From positions 1 through 64,000 of the forward strand of contig NZ_APLF01000001.1 in assembly GCF_000355905.1 (NCBI RefSeq): a DNA stretch of 64,000 bases, read 5' to 3'. Origin of the DNA: Psychroflexus gondwanensis ACAM 44. Its GTDB lineage: Bacteria; Bacteroidota; Bacteroidia; Flavobacteriales; Flavobacteriaceae. A program made the translations under genes and the position numbers. Positions 54,191-60,706 of the stretch are shown in pieces (the first letter of the stretch is position 1; each line of letters opens with the position of its first letter). The notes under the pieces are model-generated. The model ran no database searches and was not told where the DNA came from. It worked only from the letters and a program-made list of their open reading frames with translations.

Positions 54191-54601
54191 ATAACTTGGT
54201 AATCTGTCACCCTAAACTTGACTGAATGCAACTGGTAGGCTGACTTATTTCAGGGTCTTCAATTCTCTTGACTTTTAATATTCTAAGATTCCGAAAACCC
54301 CTCTTAAAATTTCATTGGTCGGGTTAGAAAGAGAGTTTTCCTAAATTGAGATGCCTCCTCTTCAAGTTCAGCATACCTTACCTACTCAACAGAAATTAAG
54401 ATATCATCCAATTCATAAGTTCCATCATTAGCTTCACCACCGCTGCCTATATATCTAAAGGCGATGTAACCATCCCCTTCAAAACAGGACATTAATGTTG
54501 GGTTACTGAAAAAACGTTATAATCTTAAACGACTGTAAGAATTCTTAGTTATTACCCGCCGTTTTTGTTGGAATATTATTTAAGCTGATTAAAATAATTG
54601 T
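54191..54601. other. Gene-poor stretch with a decayed gene fragment
   Basis: No intact gene is seen. The middle holds a fragment of an exported beta-domain protein (54382-54519, minus). The rest (54191-54381 and 54520-54601) has no clear frame, RNA gene or terminator. This gap separates the core flippase operon from the accessory-looking operon at 54602-59037. Confidence 0.6.
54382..54519 (-). pseudogene. C-terminal fragment of a secreted DUF5017/choice-of-anchor-type protein
   Basis: On the minus strand an open frame ending at 54382 reads in part GDGYIAFRYIGSGGEANDG, then TYELDDILIS and a stop. This is the typical end of a jelly-roll (DUF5017, choice-of-anchor) domain in exported flavobacterial proteins. 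In the same frame a stop codon lies about 45 codons upstream, and no signal peptide or longer gene exists. It is a remnant left by deletion of the rest. Confidence 0.65.
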
Positions 54602-56458
54602 TTAATAAAGTTGTTGCTTGAAATAATCACTCGTCTCTTTGTCTTTACAATATATATAGCAGCCCTTCATCCCCCTAGTCATTAAGGTTCTATAGGTATT
54701 TTTGATTATCTCTTTTAAAAGTGATTTCCAATATTCTGGATTAACCTTTATGCCACTTTTCCAGCCAAACACAGTTCTATCACCCTTATCACGTTTTATA
54801 GGCTGTACTAATATTTCTCCATCCCGAACAATGAGGTCTTCTCCAATAATAACACCTACGTAGTCAAGTTCGAGCCCCTGAGCTGTATGAATACATCCGA
54901 TTTCAGTAACAGATTCTTCATCTATAACCCATTTGCCACCATAATCAGTCATATTCCACTTCATATTAAAGCCAAATTCCTCCTCTTTGAAATCGTAAAC
55001 GTCAGGATTCTTTTTACTATCCCAAGCCCAACAATAGCCTGCCACTAATCTTGCTTTATTGTTTATTTTATTTTTTTTAAAGATTTCTTGCTGAAGAGCT
55101 AAAGGATCATCAAAAACTTTAAAATCGTATTCATAATCAAGGCTTTCTAAATCAAAATTTGCAGTTTCTCTAATTTGCAAAACATTATCTAGCCAAGCTA
55201 AGTAACCGTCAGAACCATTACATCTAAACTGCGATTCTAATTTTAGTTTAGTAACGCCTATTTTTCGTTCTTCAGCAAACTTCTCTATTAAATAAGATTC
55301 ACCGTAATCGTCTACAGAAACACGTTGATTCTTATCAATGAAGAATATTGATGATAAAGCTGTTTCTAAAATCTCAATGATTTGGTTTTTTCCTCTTTTT
55401 AAAAACCCAGTACGTTCTGTCAAGCGATGTGCCTCATCAACTATAAGAGTGTTTATTGCGTTTTCAGGTGCGTTGATAAACGTTCCCGAACCTACAAATA
55501 GATTTTTAAGTTCAACTTTTTTCTTTGTTCCAGATAATTTTTCAAAGTACACATCTCGTGGGGCAGAAGTTTTAGTAACATACTGCGACATCTTGCCTCT
55601 TCTGTTAAGCTCTACCAACAAATTTATAGCAACAACAGATTTACCTGTGCCTGGACCACCCTCTACAATAAGTACATTTTTATTTTTTTCATTTGACTTG
55701 ATTCCTAAATCCAAAGCTGTCTCATATACAACTTTTTGGTCATCAATCATTACAAACTCTTGATTCCCTTTGATCATGTTTTTTAAGCTATCAGCAAGGC
55801 TTTTGGTAGGTTTAATTTTACCATTGTCGATGCGGAACATAATATTGGAATGGTCACCTTCTTTTATGAAGCGTTTTATAAACTCTCTTAGCTTGATCGC
55901 ATCAGGTTGAAGGAAAACTGGCGCTTTTTCTATGTAATAGCTGTAAAATTCGTTGGTGATATTATCGTCAGGTTCATAATTGTGAAGGTAAGCGCAAGGG
56001 TGCAATTTAATGTTCTCTTCGTCTACTGTGGCATTAAATGATTGTAATAAGGCTGCATATGACCAAGCTTGATAGGAGGGGTGACTTGTTTCTGTGACAC
56101 CGTGTTGAAATCTTGTTTTTACAATTCCATCCTTTGGGGTTAATTCAGCTTGTTGCCATTGCTTTAACTCCACAATAATGACATTTTCTTGACCTTCAGA
56201 AGTGCCTGATACAATAAAATCAACTCTTTTTGAAGTTTGAGGTAAATGGTACTCAATAGAAATCCCACAATCTTCAGGGATTTCATTATCATATAGCACT
56301 CTATCCATATACTGAAGTGAGTTCTGAAAAGACCTCAACTCGTTATTAGCTACTTTTTTACCAGTACGTTCAAGTATCTGTTGGGAAACAATATTATGGA
56401 TATTATTAGTTAAAATATCATCACTAAATTTTTTTTTGGTCTTGTTGTAAACAAGCAT
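54602..56458 (-). CDS. PD-(D/E)XK nuclease fused to SF1-type helicase (DUF2075-like)
   Basis: This 618-residue protein has a probable PD-(D/E)XK endonuclease domain at about 60-110 (Asp80 in KRVDFIV; Glu97 and Lys99 in VIIVELKQW). The helicase part follows: Walker A EGGPGTGKS at 266-274, Walker B LIVDEAH at 338-344, LESQFRCNG at 408-415, IHTAQGLELDYVGVIIG at 523-539 and YRTLMTRGMKG at 589-599. This is the DUF2075/Schlafen-group-3-like arrangement. It is the last gene of a three-gene operon after a MazG-like and a TPR/HExxH gene. A role in DNA or RNA restriction is inferred. Confidence 0.87.
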   Translation of the reverse strand: MLVYNKTKKKFSDDILTNNIHNIVSQQILERTGKKVANNELRSFQNSLQYMDRVLYDNEIPEDCGISIEYHLPQTSKRVDFIVSGTSEGQENVIIVELKQWQQAELTPKDGIVKTRFQHGVTETSHPSYQAWSYAALLQSFNATVDEENIKLHPCAYLHNYEPDDNITNEFYSYYIEKAPVFLQPDAIKLREFIKRFIKEGDHSNIMFRIDNGKIKPTKSLADSLKNMIKGNQEFVMIDDQKVVYETALDLGIKSNEKNKNVLIVEGGPGTGKSVVAINLLVELNRRGKMSQYVTKTSAPRDVYFEKLSGTKKKVELKNLFVGSGTFINAPENAINTLIVDEAHRLTERTGFLKRGKNQIIEILETALSSIFFIDKNQRVSVDDYGESYLIEKFAEERKIGVTKLKLESQFRCNGSDGYLAWLDNVLQIRETANFDLESLDYEYDFKVFDDPLALQQEIFKKNKINNKARLVAGYCWAWDSKKNPDVYDFKEEEFGFNMKWNMTDYGGKWVIDEESVTEIGCIHTAQGLELDYVGVIIGEDLIVRDGEILVQPIKRDKGDRTVFGWKSGIKVNPEYWKSLLKEIIKNTYRTLMTRGMKGCYIYCKDKETSDYFKQQLY

Positions 56459-56481
56459 ATACTTAAGTTTTTGTTAGTGAA

Positions 56482-57087
56482 TTATAGTTTATTGTATTTA
56501 GTATTGACACCTTTAGATTTTGAAATTGGATACTTTTTTGAGTTTATTTTAATCTTTTCCAAGGTGACTGATTCTAGGTCAATTCCCAAATCTGTGGCGA
56601 TGTACAACAAATAGGAAAAAACATCAGCGACCTCCTCATTGATTTGGTCTTTATTAGTGGTTGAGATATCTTTCCAAAGAAAACATTCTAGTAATTCACT
56701 GGCTTCGATAGATAATGCCATTGACAGATCTTTAGGATTGTGGAATTGTTTCCAATCTCTTTCTTCTCTAAACACCTCTAAGGCTTCAATAATTGGGTTA
56801 AGTGAAGAGTTAATGCCTCTGTATATAACAAGTAAAACTGATGCCTTTATTTCGACTCTAGATAGGCTTAAAACATCATTCTCAAGAATAATGGTTTCAT
56901 CTATACTTCCAAAACTTACCGACTTGTATGCATTTTCGTTTAAAAATTGATTAATTCCACTTTCTAAGTTTAAAACTGATCCAAATTCTTCAGCTAGGAA
57001 TAGCTTATTGAAATTGCCTTCTCTATCTAAGAAACCATTGTAAGCCGATGCTTCTTTATCGTTTCTGGGAAAATGGATGCTTATCAT
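56482..57087 (-). CDS. MazG-like nucleotide pyrophosphohydrolase with extra N-terminal domain
   Basis: Residues 98-190 of this 201-residue protein form a MazG-like all-alpha NTP pyrophosphohydrolase. Its metal-binding acidic residues are Glu128, Glu131 and Glu134 in SIEASELLE and Glu152, Asp155 in EEVADVFSYL, and FREERDWKQFHNPKDL is typical of the small MazG-like subgroup. Residues 1-97 are a separate beta-rich domain that I do not recognise. It lies nine bases after the TPR/HExxH gene and 23 before the nuclease-helicase gene. It may hydrolyse noncanonical or alarm nucleotides; the substrate is unknown. Confidence 0.84.
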   Translation of the reverse strand: MISIHFPRNDKEASAYNGFLDREGNFNKLFLAEEFGSVLNLESGINQFLNENAYKSVSFGSIDETIILENDVLSLSRVEIKASVLLVIYRGINSSLNPIIEALEVFREERDWKQFHNPKDLSMALSIEASELLECFLWKDISTTNKDQINEEVADVFSYLLYIATDLGIDLESVTLEKIKINSKKYPISKSKGVNTKYNKL

Positions 57088-57096
57088 GACTTGATT

Positions 57097-59037
57097 TTAA
57101 AGTGCTTGTTGCGCTATTTCATATTCTTTATCGAAAGGCATACCTAGTTGTGGAAGCATTTCAGGTATTCCAACTGCCCAACTCACATAGTAATATGCCA
57201 AAGCCTGAAAACCTGACATTTTTTTATCTATTGAAGGTACATCATAATTATTTTTGGATGGATCAATGCCAGTCATCCCTAAAGTACCAAATTCGAATGC
57301 AATTTTTTTAATTTCTGCTTTTGGTTTACTAACAAAAAAGTCCAATGCTTCAACCATGTACATTACAACAGCAGTATTAACCTCATCACTGCTATGTGAT
57401 TCAACAAACTTTTTACGTTCTTCGATAACATAATCAGATTCTTTACTTTCTAAACCATAGGGGTCTTTGTTGACATCACTAATTACATCCTCAGCTGTTT
57501 TAGACTTATTTATGCTTTCTTTTTTAAGCTCAAATAAATCGTCTAACTCTAAATCTTCAGCCCAGTGTTGTAAAAGTTCATATTCTTCAGATGGTTCTTT
57601 ATCCTTTAAATATTCAAGGTATTCTTGATAAAAATTTTCTGCTTGTTTTCGTTCAATTTTGTTAGACTTAAATTCAGCGATTAAATCAATCCCGTAAAAA
57701 TCTTTGTACCACAGGGCATTTACTAAGTTCAAAACTTTTGATTTCGAGATGATGGTTTTAGGCATCATTCTTACCACCTCTTTATCGGTTGTTGCTTTAA
57801 TACCATCCGAGATGATTTTGAACAATGACAGTAATTGAATGGGTCTTGCTTTGCTGTGCTTGCTATAAATGCTATGCTCAATAAACAAGTCGATCGGTGT
57901 ATTAAATACCTGAGAATTTAAGCCATTGAACAGGGATGTAATTAGCTTTATTATATTTTCGGAAGGGATGCCTTTTTTTAGAAGCCCTGTTTTATAATTG
58001 TTTAGTTTTTGAAAAAATTTATCTTGGTGTGATTGATTTGATGTGAATAAAAAATTATTTTCTAGTTTACGAGCTTCAGCGATAAGTTCAAGGTGATACA
58101 ACTCGTGTAGCATCAAGTGTGGTACAGTTAAGTCCAGTTTTTTGTAAAACAATCTGTGATGATCTCTATTGTGATACTCAGCCACTTCTAATTTAGCAGG
58201 CGTATCTATATTTTCTGAAAGTTCAATATCGATTTCTTTACCTGTCTTTTTTATCAAATCATCTTTCAAATAATGAATATCCGATTCAACTTCAGCTAAA
58301 TTATTTTTGGTTAATTCCTTTGCTATTTCAATTGAAAGCCTCTGGGCGTTCTCATAGACCTCTTCTTTAGGTTTTGAGCATTTTATAGCCTTGATTACCA
58401 TTTCGAAAGCATTATCGAACTCTTTTAGATTATAATGCACCAGTGCTGTACCATACAAAGCATTTGGGAATTTATTATTCACTTTAATTGATTCTTCAAA
58501 AAAGTTTTTGGCTTCAGTTAAATGGTTTTGTTGCGCTAAAAGACTTCCAATGTTTGATAAAGAATAATAATCGTTTGGATCGAATTTTAAAGCAGTATTC
58601 CAATAGTTTAATGCTCTTGCAGTATCGGAATTCTTATAATAAAGATTTCCCATTAAAATCAATGCATACGTATTTTTAGGATTTAATTTTAGAGCTGAAA
58701 TCAAGTAATCTTCGGCTTGTGCCATATTATCAGTTTCAAAATGAATTTGTGCTAAAATTCGGTTAAGCTCTGAAGAATATGGATATAATGGTAGTAGTTT
58801 TTTTGCTTTAGATAAGGCTTTTTTAAAATCACCTTTTTCGCACAAACCAATGAGATTTTTATGAATGTCATCTGGTATGAGATTAATGTCATCTATTTCG
58901 ATTTCAGCTACATCTTCGATTAATTTAAAGTTGAAATCTCGGTAAGTTTCTTTGAGATGACTAATAATGTTTTCATTGTTCTTATCTCTTAAATTTAGGA
59001 TTTGCGCTAAATCTAATAAGGCAATCTTTATTTTCAT
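57097..59037 (-). CDS. TPR protein with HExxH putative metallopeptidase domain
   Basis: This 646-residue soluble protein has a short N-terminal domain, about five TPR units at 63-225 (for example ALILMGNLYYKNSDTARAL and SLSNIGSLLAQQNHLTEA) and a helical middle with the zinc-binding motif HELYH at 311-315, preceded by VPHLML. Glu321 may help, but the third metal ligand is not certain. The C-terminal 250 residues are unknown. It is the first gene of the three-gene operon. A TPR sensor linked to a peptidase fits a switch activated by a ligand, but this is inference. Confidence 0.75.
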   Translation of the reverse strand: MKIKIALLDLAQILNLRDKNNENIISHLKETYRDFNFKLIEDVAEIEIDDINLIPDDIHKNLIGLCEKGDFKKALSKAKKLLPLYPYSSELNRILAQIHFETDNMAQAEDYLISALKLNPKNTYALILMGNLYYKNSDTARALNYWNTALKFDPNDYYSLSNIGSLLAQQNHLTEAKNFFEESIKVNNKFPNALYGTALVHYNLKEFDNAFEMVIKAIKCSKPKEEVYENAQRLSIEIAKELTKNNLAEVESDIHYLKDDLIKKTGKEIDIELSENIDTPAKLEVAEYHNRDHHRLFYKKLDLTVPHLMLHELYHLELIAEARKLENNFLFTSNQSHQDKFFQKLNNYKTGLLKKGIPSENIIKLITSLFNGLNSQVFNTPIDLFIEHSIYSKHSKARPIQLLSLFKIISDGIKATTDKEVVRMMPKTIISKSKVLNLVNALWYKDFYGIDLIAEFKSNKIERKQAENFYQEYLEYLKDKEPSEEYELLQHWAEDLELDDLFELKKESINKSKTAEDVISDVNKDPYGLESKESDYVIEERKKFVESHSSDEVNTAVVMYMVEALDFFVSKPKAEIKKIAFEFGTLGMTGIDPSKNNYDVPSIDKKMSGFQALAYYYVSWAVGIPEMLPQLGMPFDKEYEIAQQAL

Positions 59038-59059
59038 TACTGGAATTTAAGTTCAGTTA

Positions 59060-59067
59060 CAAATGTA
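59060..59067 (-). promoter_or_regulatory. Putative -7 box of the three-gene operon
   Basis: TACATTTG on the minus strand fits TAnnTTTG, 22 bases before the start at 59037, and lies in a near palindrome GTTACAAATGTAA (59056-59068). No TTG is seen at -33. The same box sequence precedes the flippase operon. Confidence 0.42.
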
Positions 59068-59129
59068 ATTAATTAGATGAATTTTTATATTTAAAACATA
59101 TAATATCCTTTATGTGTAATTAGTATAAA

Positions 59130-60323: not shown

Positions 60324-60395
60324 AGCTCCGTAGTTCAATGGATAGAACAAAAGTTTCCTAAACTTTAGATCTAAGTTCGATTCTTAGCGGAGCTA
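60324..60395 (+). tRNA. tRNA-Arg (anticodon CCT)
   Basis: A full cloverleaf can be drawn: acceptor AGCTCCG with CGGAGCT, D-stem GTTC with GAAC, anticodon stem AAAGT with ACTTT around loop TTCCTAA (anticodon CCT, reading AGG), a four-base variable loop, and T-stem CTAAG with CTTAG around TTCGATT. The discriminator is A at 60395. CCA is not encoded. It has 72 bases and no gene overlaps it credibly. Confidence 0.95.
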
Positions 60396-60706
60396 CTATA
60401 CTTGAATCGAAACTTTTCATATAGCAGACCATTTCATTAGTCAATTCAAAATCAGGAAAACGGTTATTCTCCAAGTTGTCTTCACAATACGCTTTTATAA
60501 AACTGATACAACAGAAAATGTGATTCCTAAAAGTCAAATTCATTATAAATCGAGTATTCTCGAAGTTGAAAAATTCAAGTTAAATATAGACTTATTGATT
60601 GCACGGCTTTACCTTGGATCAGATAGTTTGAAGTTTCAAACTTTGATGAGCAGGTTTCTTTATTAAAATATAGCTTTACTTTAGGATGGGATTATGCTGT
60701 AAATTC
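60396..60706. other. Intergenic region after tRNA-Arg
   Basis: No supported gene. A 61-codon minus-strand frame (60358-60543) runs into the tRNA gene and shows no known motif; it is probably chance or a remnant. I see no repeat of the tRNA 3' end here or elsewhere in the window, so there is no sign of an integrated element. Confidence 0.5.

Follow-up and report, generated by a model that had tools for sequence, protein, structure and literature searches.

The question raised by this locus is what is done by three adjoining genes that Psychroflexus gondwanensis ACAM 44 carries where its congeners carry others. The genes lie in a stretch of 64,000 nucleotides (contig NZ_APLF01000001.1, positions 1 to 64,000 of the forward strand), which was analysed as a whole and is called the window here. 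They encode a protein with tetratricopeptide repeats (TPR) and an HExxH motif, a MazG-like nucleotide pyrophosphohydrolase and a nuclease-helicase of the PF09848 family, together referred to as the trio. A first-pass annotation had likened this combination to anti-phage systems. On balance, our analysis inclines toward the view that the trio is a horizontally acquired cassette directed against phages or other mobile elements. The cassette is real, mobile and modular, and a conflict role is probable.

An acquired block with a recurrent core

The trio is an acquired block that replaced resident genes (Table 1). DNA homology to the sister genome G763 stops at 54492 and restarts at 59081, and the gene remnant noted in the first-pass annotation proved to be the end of the replaced 471-aa gene. 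In all eight inspected congeners the slot holds no trio gene but two conserved genes, one of 471-491 aa and one of 951-957 aa that is TonB-receptor-like by inspection; a search of the remaining 62-contig assembly of the window's genome for the 957-aa gene gave no match at E<=1e-10. Of the 27 genomes of the genus, the window's own among them, 25 have a homologue of the flanking flippase gene and 26 have one of the flanking endonuclease/exonuclease/phosphatase-like gene, both genes being named by inspection. The GC content of the trio is 31.6-34.5% versus 36.7% for the window, and its GC3 is 0.27-0.30 versus 0.35 and 0.40 in the flanking genes. A core housekeeping operon is ruled out by the absence of the trio from this slot in the eight inspected congeners and by the rarity of the TPR-HExxH protein in the order, where 5 of 395 genomes have it, the window's own included. 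The families are accessory. The slot is variable, with other extra genes in G763, G355, G747 and G742. That of G763 (L136:7103-8825) encodes a 397-aa protein with a HELCH motif and an HTH-like N-terminus (by inspection), thus another HExxH protein in the same hotspot, together with a 173-aa partner.

The proposed operon organisation was confirmed insofar that three intact open reading frames (ORFs, called mechanically) lie on the minus strand with intergenic gaps of 9 and 23 bases. Since the same gene order is found at eight other loci, the arrangement in the window is not due to chance. These are L003 (Formosa maritima), L004 (Indibacter alkaliphilus), L035, L052, L065, L069 (a Marivirga plasmid, where the trio is decayed and its frames broken), L071 (the Microcystis record PP438423) and L155, so that the anticipated co-occurrence of the three families is borne out. 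At L052 one gene, encoding 363 aa without a Pfam match at E<=0.01 (L052:10372-11463), is inserted between MazG and helicase. On a Hymenobacter plasmid (L070) the TPR protein and MazG are followed by a large gene unrelated to the trio helicase, with two PF09848-type genes at a distance of over 4 kb; L070:12857 had been taken for the trio helicase and was ruled out on alignment.

The conserved core is the MazG and PF09848 helicase pair, and the TPR partner is accessory. In a sample of 395 genomes of the phylum, MazG matches were found in 27 (29 places), PF09848 in 42 and both in 18 (Fisher p 1.6e-13). The HExxH region is present in 21 by hand count from the listing, while a tally of 60 for the TPR-HExxH search includes TPR-only matches. 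At 17 of the 29 MazG places the gene precedes a PF09848 gene of the same orientation, the distance to the helicase domain being 1.9 kb or less (with an intervening gene in G172). Only three of these 17 pairs, in the window, G202 and G172, have the TPR partner, which rules out a fixed three-gene system. The single system postulated in the first-pass annotation therefore gives way to a two-gene core, with a TPR protein that is also found with other defence systems.

The MazG-helicase pair extends beyond Bacteroidota. Six of eight plasmid records with a PF09848 helicase also have a MazG match, placed 8 bases before the helicase in the archaeon Halalkalicoccus jeotgali and 62 bases before it in Priestia aryabhattai (match coordinates), adjoining it in Marivirga, about 700 bases after it in Halomonas and, in one Hymenobacter plasmid, about 4 kb away across the record start; in the other Hymenobacter plasmid MazG lies beside the TPR gene. 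Two Methanosphaera plasmid records with the helicase gave no MazG match. MazG copies other than that of the window share 58-74% identity across trio loci, whereas helicases of differing nuclease type share only 25-35%, which makes MazG the constant part and the nuclease-helicase the exchanged one. The window's MazG is itself an outlier, with 45-51% identity to other trio copies. A scan of genome contigs for the system returned three loci, one matching the TPR part only, and a scan of viral contigs returned one partial relative, cut by the contig end.

Three proteins of known kinds

The 618-aa protein matches PF09848 full-length on its helicase domain (5.1e-97; 325.8 bits against a cut-off of 24) and has intact Walker motifs, including a Walker B DEAH, which places it among the Schlafen-group-3 (DUF2075) DNA/RNA helicases. 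Its N-terminus bears a PD-(D/E)XK-type motif in place of a Schlafen core, and AlbA_2 was absent from its 20 Pfam matches at E<=1. Within this motif D80 does not vary among 14 aligned rows, one of which (L070:12857) is a non-homologue, and conservation of E97 and K99 reaches at least 90%; a nuclease is predicted. The helicases of L065 and L003 share 78-79% identity with that of the window. Among the helicases as a whole the nuclease is of either the PD-(D/E)XK or the GIY-YIG type.

For the 201-aa protein, a PF12643 match (1.5e-16), dCTP pyrophosphatase 1 chains matching its C-terminal half (about 3e-14) and an ExxE...ExxD metal site predict a MazG-like enzyme that would hydrolyse NTPs or dNTPs. 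Glu152 is invariant across 20 aligned rows, of which 19 are true MazG; the remaining row, a 108-aa second gene product at L045, had been taken for MazG and was ruled out by the alignment. The protein resembles MazG/dCTP pyrophosphatase 1 (RS21-C6) in this motif and in its matches to solved dCTPases, but differs in its genetic tie to a nuclease-helicase and in an N-terminal stretch of about 95 aa (56803-57087). This extension has no convincing Pfam family match, and among the 20 rows it is common only to the Marivirga plasmid copy.

In the 646-aa protein Pfam identifies TPR repeats and no further convincing domain; for the HExxH region neither Pfam nor NCBIfam returned a convincing family. The HExxH motif is kept in 16 of 17 aligned rows, L053 being the sole row without it. 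In a 20-row alignment that omits L053, residues H307, H311, E312, H315 and E387 are invariant, and the HExxH with a downstream Glu corresponds to the sequence pattern of gluzincins. The predicted full-length structure has a pLDDT of 87.6, and the matches listed by a fold search with it were all TPR-type or long helical-repeat proteins. Modelled separately (pLDDT 87.1), the C-terminal part shows three strands, the HExxH helix and a long helix bearing E387. It had no Foldseek match at E<=0.001, and its best VIA-align matches were weak, with candidate zincins listed among unrelated helical proteins. The rows 3iuk, MATCAP 7z5g/7z6s, 6mdx, selecase 4qhj and 4gaa, which we take to be zincins, are suggestive only. 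The protein thus appears zincin-like, and a peptidase activity would fit its conserved residues.

Table 1. Coordinates of the acquired block, its genes and motifs, and nearby features
Feature	Positions	Strand	Basis
Remnant of 123 bases, end of replaced 471-aa gene	54370..54492	.	88.6% identical to L136:9054-9176 (G763)
Acquired block replacing two congener-conserved genes	54493..59080	.	DNA comparison with sister genome G763
PD-(D/E)XK-type nuclease motif plus Schlafen-group-3 (DUF2075) SF1 helicase, 618 aa	54602..56458	-	PF09848; conserved motifs
Walker A GGPGTGKS (residues 267-274)	55637..55660	-	Alignment
PD-(D/E)XK motif D80...E97-x-K99	56162..56221	-	Alignment
MazG-like nucleotide pyrophosphohydrolase, 201 aa	56482..57087	-	PF12643; dCTP pyrophosphatase 1 matches
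ExxD half of MazG metal site (E152, D155)	56623..56634	-	Alignment
ExxE half of MazG metal site (E128, E131)	56695..56706	-	Alignment
TPR plus HExxH (zincin-like) protein, 646 aa, first operon gene	57097..59037	-	ORF; TPR Pfam matches
Glu387, candidate third zinc ligand (residue 152 of C-terminal piece)	57877..57879	-	Invariant in 20/20 rows
HELYH, residues 311-315	58093..58107	-	Alignment of homologues
Candidate -7 promoter box TACATTTG	59060..59067	-	Inside acquired block
tRNA-Arg	60324..60396		

The first-pass annotation had also given the operon a -7 box of its own and a tRNA neighbour. The tRNA was located as tRNA-Arg. The box is present, 22 bases 5' of the start codon of the TPR gene, and fits the Bacteroidota -7 consensus; the pattern is found 98 times in the window versus 81.7 expected, and TACATTTG alone is thus weak evidence for a promoter.

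Each part is of a known kind, and we found no name for the exact combination, which agrees with the earlier remark that this trio was not recognised as a named system. In PADLOC 2023 the MazG protein matched no family at E<=1, the TPR protein matched two TPR models only, and the helicase gave partial matches to PDC-S41 (2.3e-15, residues 14-286), AbiO (1.3e-10) and Nhi (4.6e-10), the latter two on the helicase core; the three proteins constitute none of the named systems in that collection. Among the papers listed by our literature search there was no description of the system and none joining DUF2075, MazG and defense, helicase names retrieved only papers unrelated by title, and the main text of a study of BREX diversity (PMC12839542) contained none of six terms searched for. 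MazG is listed among predicted, unvalidated defence domains by DefensePredictor (2026; PMC13092281), whose main text does not use the word helicase.

Defence neighbours and exchange of partners

A total of 115 proteins (ORFs of at least 150 aa without internal stop) encoded within 4.5 kb of 20 system loci include matches to RdrA/RdrB, BrxB/BrxC, PbeA and DrmD/DrmA, as well as to HEC-06, PD-Lambda-2 and SspE models. Control proteins from the same genomes (129 of 131, L107:1213-4446 and L101:5851-9000 being left out) matched HsdS models, one mad5 and three PDC rows, each with one member. Since only the best 25 of 122 families for the system and the best 25 of 98 for the controls were compared, the PADLOC comparison is descriptive. 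Individual mapping, carried out for a subset of the loci, matched a defence-type neighbour at 10 of the 20, some matches being weak or a few kb away: PbeA/PbeC (L065), RdrB (L077), a weak RdrA (L083), PDC-M28B (L078), Ppl (L082), PDC-S60 (L081), GmrSD (L052) and RES (L037), with L036 and L038 completing the ten. The single large neighbours of L035, L084 and L085 gave no defence-type match. The first-pass annotation had suggested looking for enrichment near defence genes, and many copies do lie among known ones. These neighbours support, but do not prove, a defence role.

Mobility is evident from carriage on the Marivirga plasmid, a Hymenobacter plasmid and the 22-kb record at L071 (PP438423.1). 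This record is named a Microcystis phage and has ParA, replication-initiation and integrase/invertase matches; 10 of its proteins were scanned without finding a clear structural gene, one giving a weak terminase/FtsK-like match, so that a plasmid or an integrative element may be its true nature. At L003 the trio lies beside a Piwi gene, and the same stretch holds a tyrosine-integrase-like gene after a TrmE-like gene (names by inspection). Downstream of the Piwi gene are a gene with a weak HATPase_c match and a DUF4325/STAS-like gene (L003:14171-15519), which resemble the CapK/CapS controllers of PMC13373217. Near the Indibacter trio, ORFs with repeated FNSCMVRLK blocks (L004:13695-14578) suggest a repeat array, perhaps CRISPR.

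The TPR-HExxH gene also accompanies other systems. At L036/L161 it precedes brxA by 15 bases, and the operon also includes brxB, brxC and pglX. Elsewhere it comes immediately before a type III-like Mod gene (L045), before an SNF2 helicase paired with a type IIG enzyme (L038) or, at L156, before type II methylase and restriction genes; further copies lie near type IIG (L154), type III (L160) and IetS (L157) genes. One genus has the protein without MazG, and two scanned copies there adjoin Y-family polymerase genes, the solo genes at L039 and L048 being convergent with such (IMS) genes. In a tree of 26 TPR-HExxH rows, from which fragments and L053 were left out and in which L052 is a long branch, partner labels are clustered overall and nine solo copies form one group. 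The starred branches require a minimum of three changes of label for each trio type, a number that a single gain with two losses could account for: L035, a trio copy, is sister to the type IIG-linked L038, and L155, also a trio copy, nests among BREX- and restriction-linked copies. By its branching order the tree implies partner swaps between systems.

Of the three proteins, the TPR protein evolves fastest. Between L003 and L065 it is 57% identical, MazG 74% and the helicase 84%, and the end branch of the window's copy is 1.27 against a median of 0.37. Such a pattern would be as expected for a part under recognition pressure, though relaxed constraint may also account for it.

What the cassette may do

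From the neighbours and the mobility we infer a defence role. The anti-phage logic of the first-pass annotation survives in the conserved order, accessory distribution, mobility and defence neighbours, though not as one fixed three-gene system. The effector would consist of two genes, one for a dCTPase-like MazG-family pyrophosphohydrolase and one for a Schlafen-group-3 SF1 helicase with a fused nuclease, and the fast-evolving TPR-zincin would be its sensor or gate. Its TPR superhelix could bind an infection-linked protein or peptide, which would activate the HExxH domain to cleave a partner and release the effector. MazG would then stall replication or transcription by lowering or removing particular (d)NTPs, and the helicase would translocate on exposed nucleic acid, which the PD-(D/E)XK domain would cut. 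Every step of this scheme, and the defence outcome, is conjectural.

A more specific form of this hypothesis, which we regard as tentative and rather doubtful, is that of a protease-gated nuclease-helicase effector with an exchangeable gate, supplied either in cis by an S24 domain or in trans by a portable TPR-zincin that also serves BREX and restriction systems. Ten GIY-YIG helicases carry a C-terminal S24 (LexA/UmuD-type) domain (PF00717 at 1e-7 in that of L004), and all ten have the Ala-Gly bond, the GESMN serine and the YT(V/I)K lysine. Self-cleavage of S24 proteins is determined by an Ala-Gly bond together with a Ser-Lys dyad (PMC8565304). Two of three GIY-YIG helicases adjoining a TPR-HExxH gene lack S24 (L035 and L155; L004 has it), compared with none of nine without this neighbour, the fragment L086 being omitted and L084 being in two pieces; the one-sided Fisher p, worked by hand, is about 0.045, with rows partly non-independent (L073 and L083 are of the same genus). 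Weighing against a strict cis/trans swap, the PD-(D/E)XK types end after the helicase and have no S24, whether or not the TPR protein accompanies them. In the TPR-CHAT of Craspase, a TPR protein carries a fused peptidase and is linked to a nuclease effector, and the trio resembles it in joining a TPR and peptidase-like protein to such an effector. The trio differs from TPR-CHAT in the HExxH type and in having no CRISPR genes in the operon, and the TPR protein had no CHAT match in Pfam at E<=1.

The position of the TPR-zincin gene directly before unrelated operons (BREX at L036, the type III-like Mod at L045, type II at L156, and MazG-helicase) could instead mean that it is a transcriptional controller like CapH+CapP, a damage-activated metallopeptidase relieving repression of the adjacent immune operon. 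There is precedent, since immune-operon controllers including a metallopeptidase are known, and CapH+CapP and CapW/BrxR control neighbouring operons of the BREX, Pycsar, CBASS and DISARM kinds (PMC13373217). Like these, an HExxH protein is encoded here beside diverse immune operons, and at L003 an HTH gene lies directly upstream. However, that is the picture at one locus only: among 10 upstream proteins (74-223 aa) at nine loci scanned, an HTH family was matched at one, and no HTH-like ORF adjoins the window operon. The protein itself has TPR, no consistent HTH partner, no ImmA/IrrE Pfam match and no convincing DNA-binding domain match in Pfam. We consider this explanation possible but not the likely one.

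MazG/dCTPase relatives sanitise nucleotide pools, and the structural matches of the window's MazG, the LexA-type S24 domains of sister helicases and the two solo TPR copies beside Y-family polymerase genes would all suit a stress module for nucleotide-pool cleaning and DNA repair rather than defence, with damaged dNTPs as the target of MazG and damaged DNA as that of the nuclease-helicase. Such a module seems unlikely given the patchy distribution, the replacement of resident genes, the plasmid carriage and the defence neighbours. Plasmid carriage (Marivirga and Hymenobacter) and the apparent location of L003 inside an integrated element would also be compatible with an exclusion or addiction module favoring the carrier element over the cell, as would the 22-kb record with its ParA, replication-initiation and integrase matches. 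We find this improbable, as many copies are on long chromosomal contigs and no integrase or plasmid gene is visible beside the window copy.

If the proposed anti-phage cassette is real in function, prokaryotic Schlafen-type helicases would gain a concrete operon partner in MazG, and nucleotide destruction would be tied to nucleic-acid cleavage. The most valuable observation, in our opinion, is the portable TPR-HExxH partner with its possible protease gate. One peptidase-like protein would then be a plug-in for unrelated immune systems, namely BREX, restriction-modification and MazG-helicase, and a single mechanism could consequently be tested across all of them.
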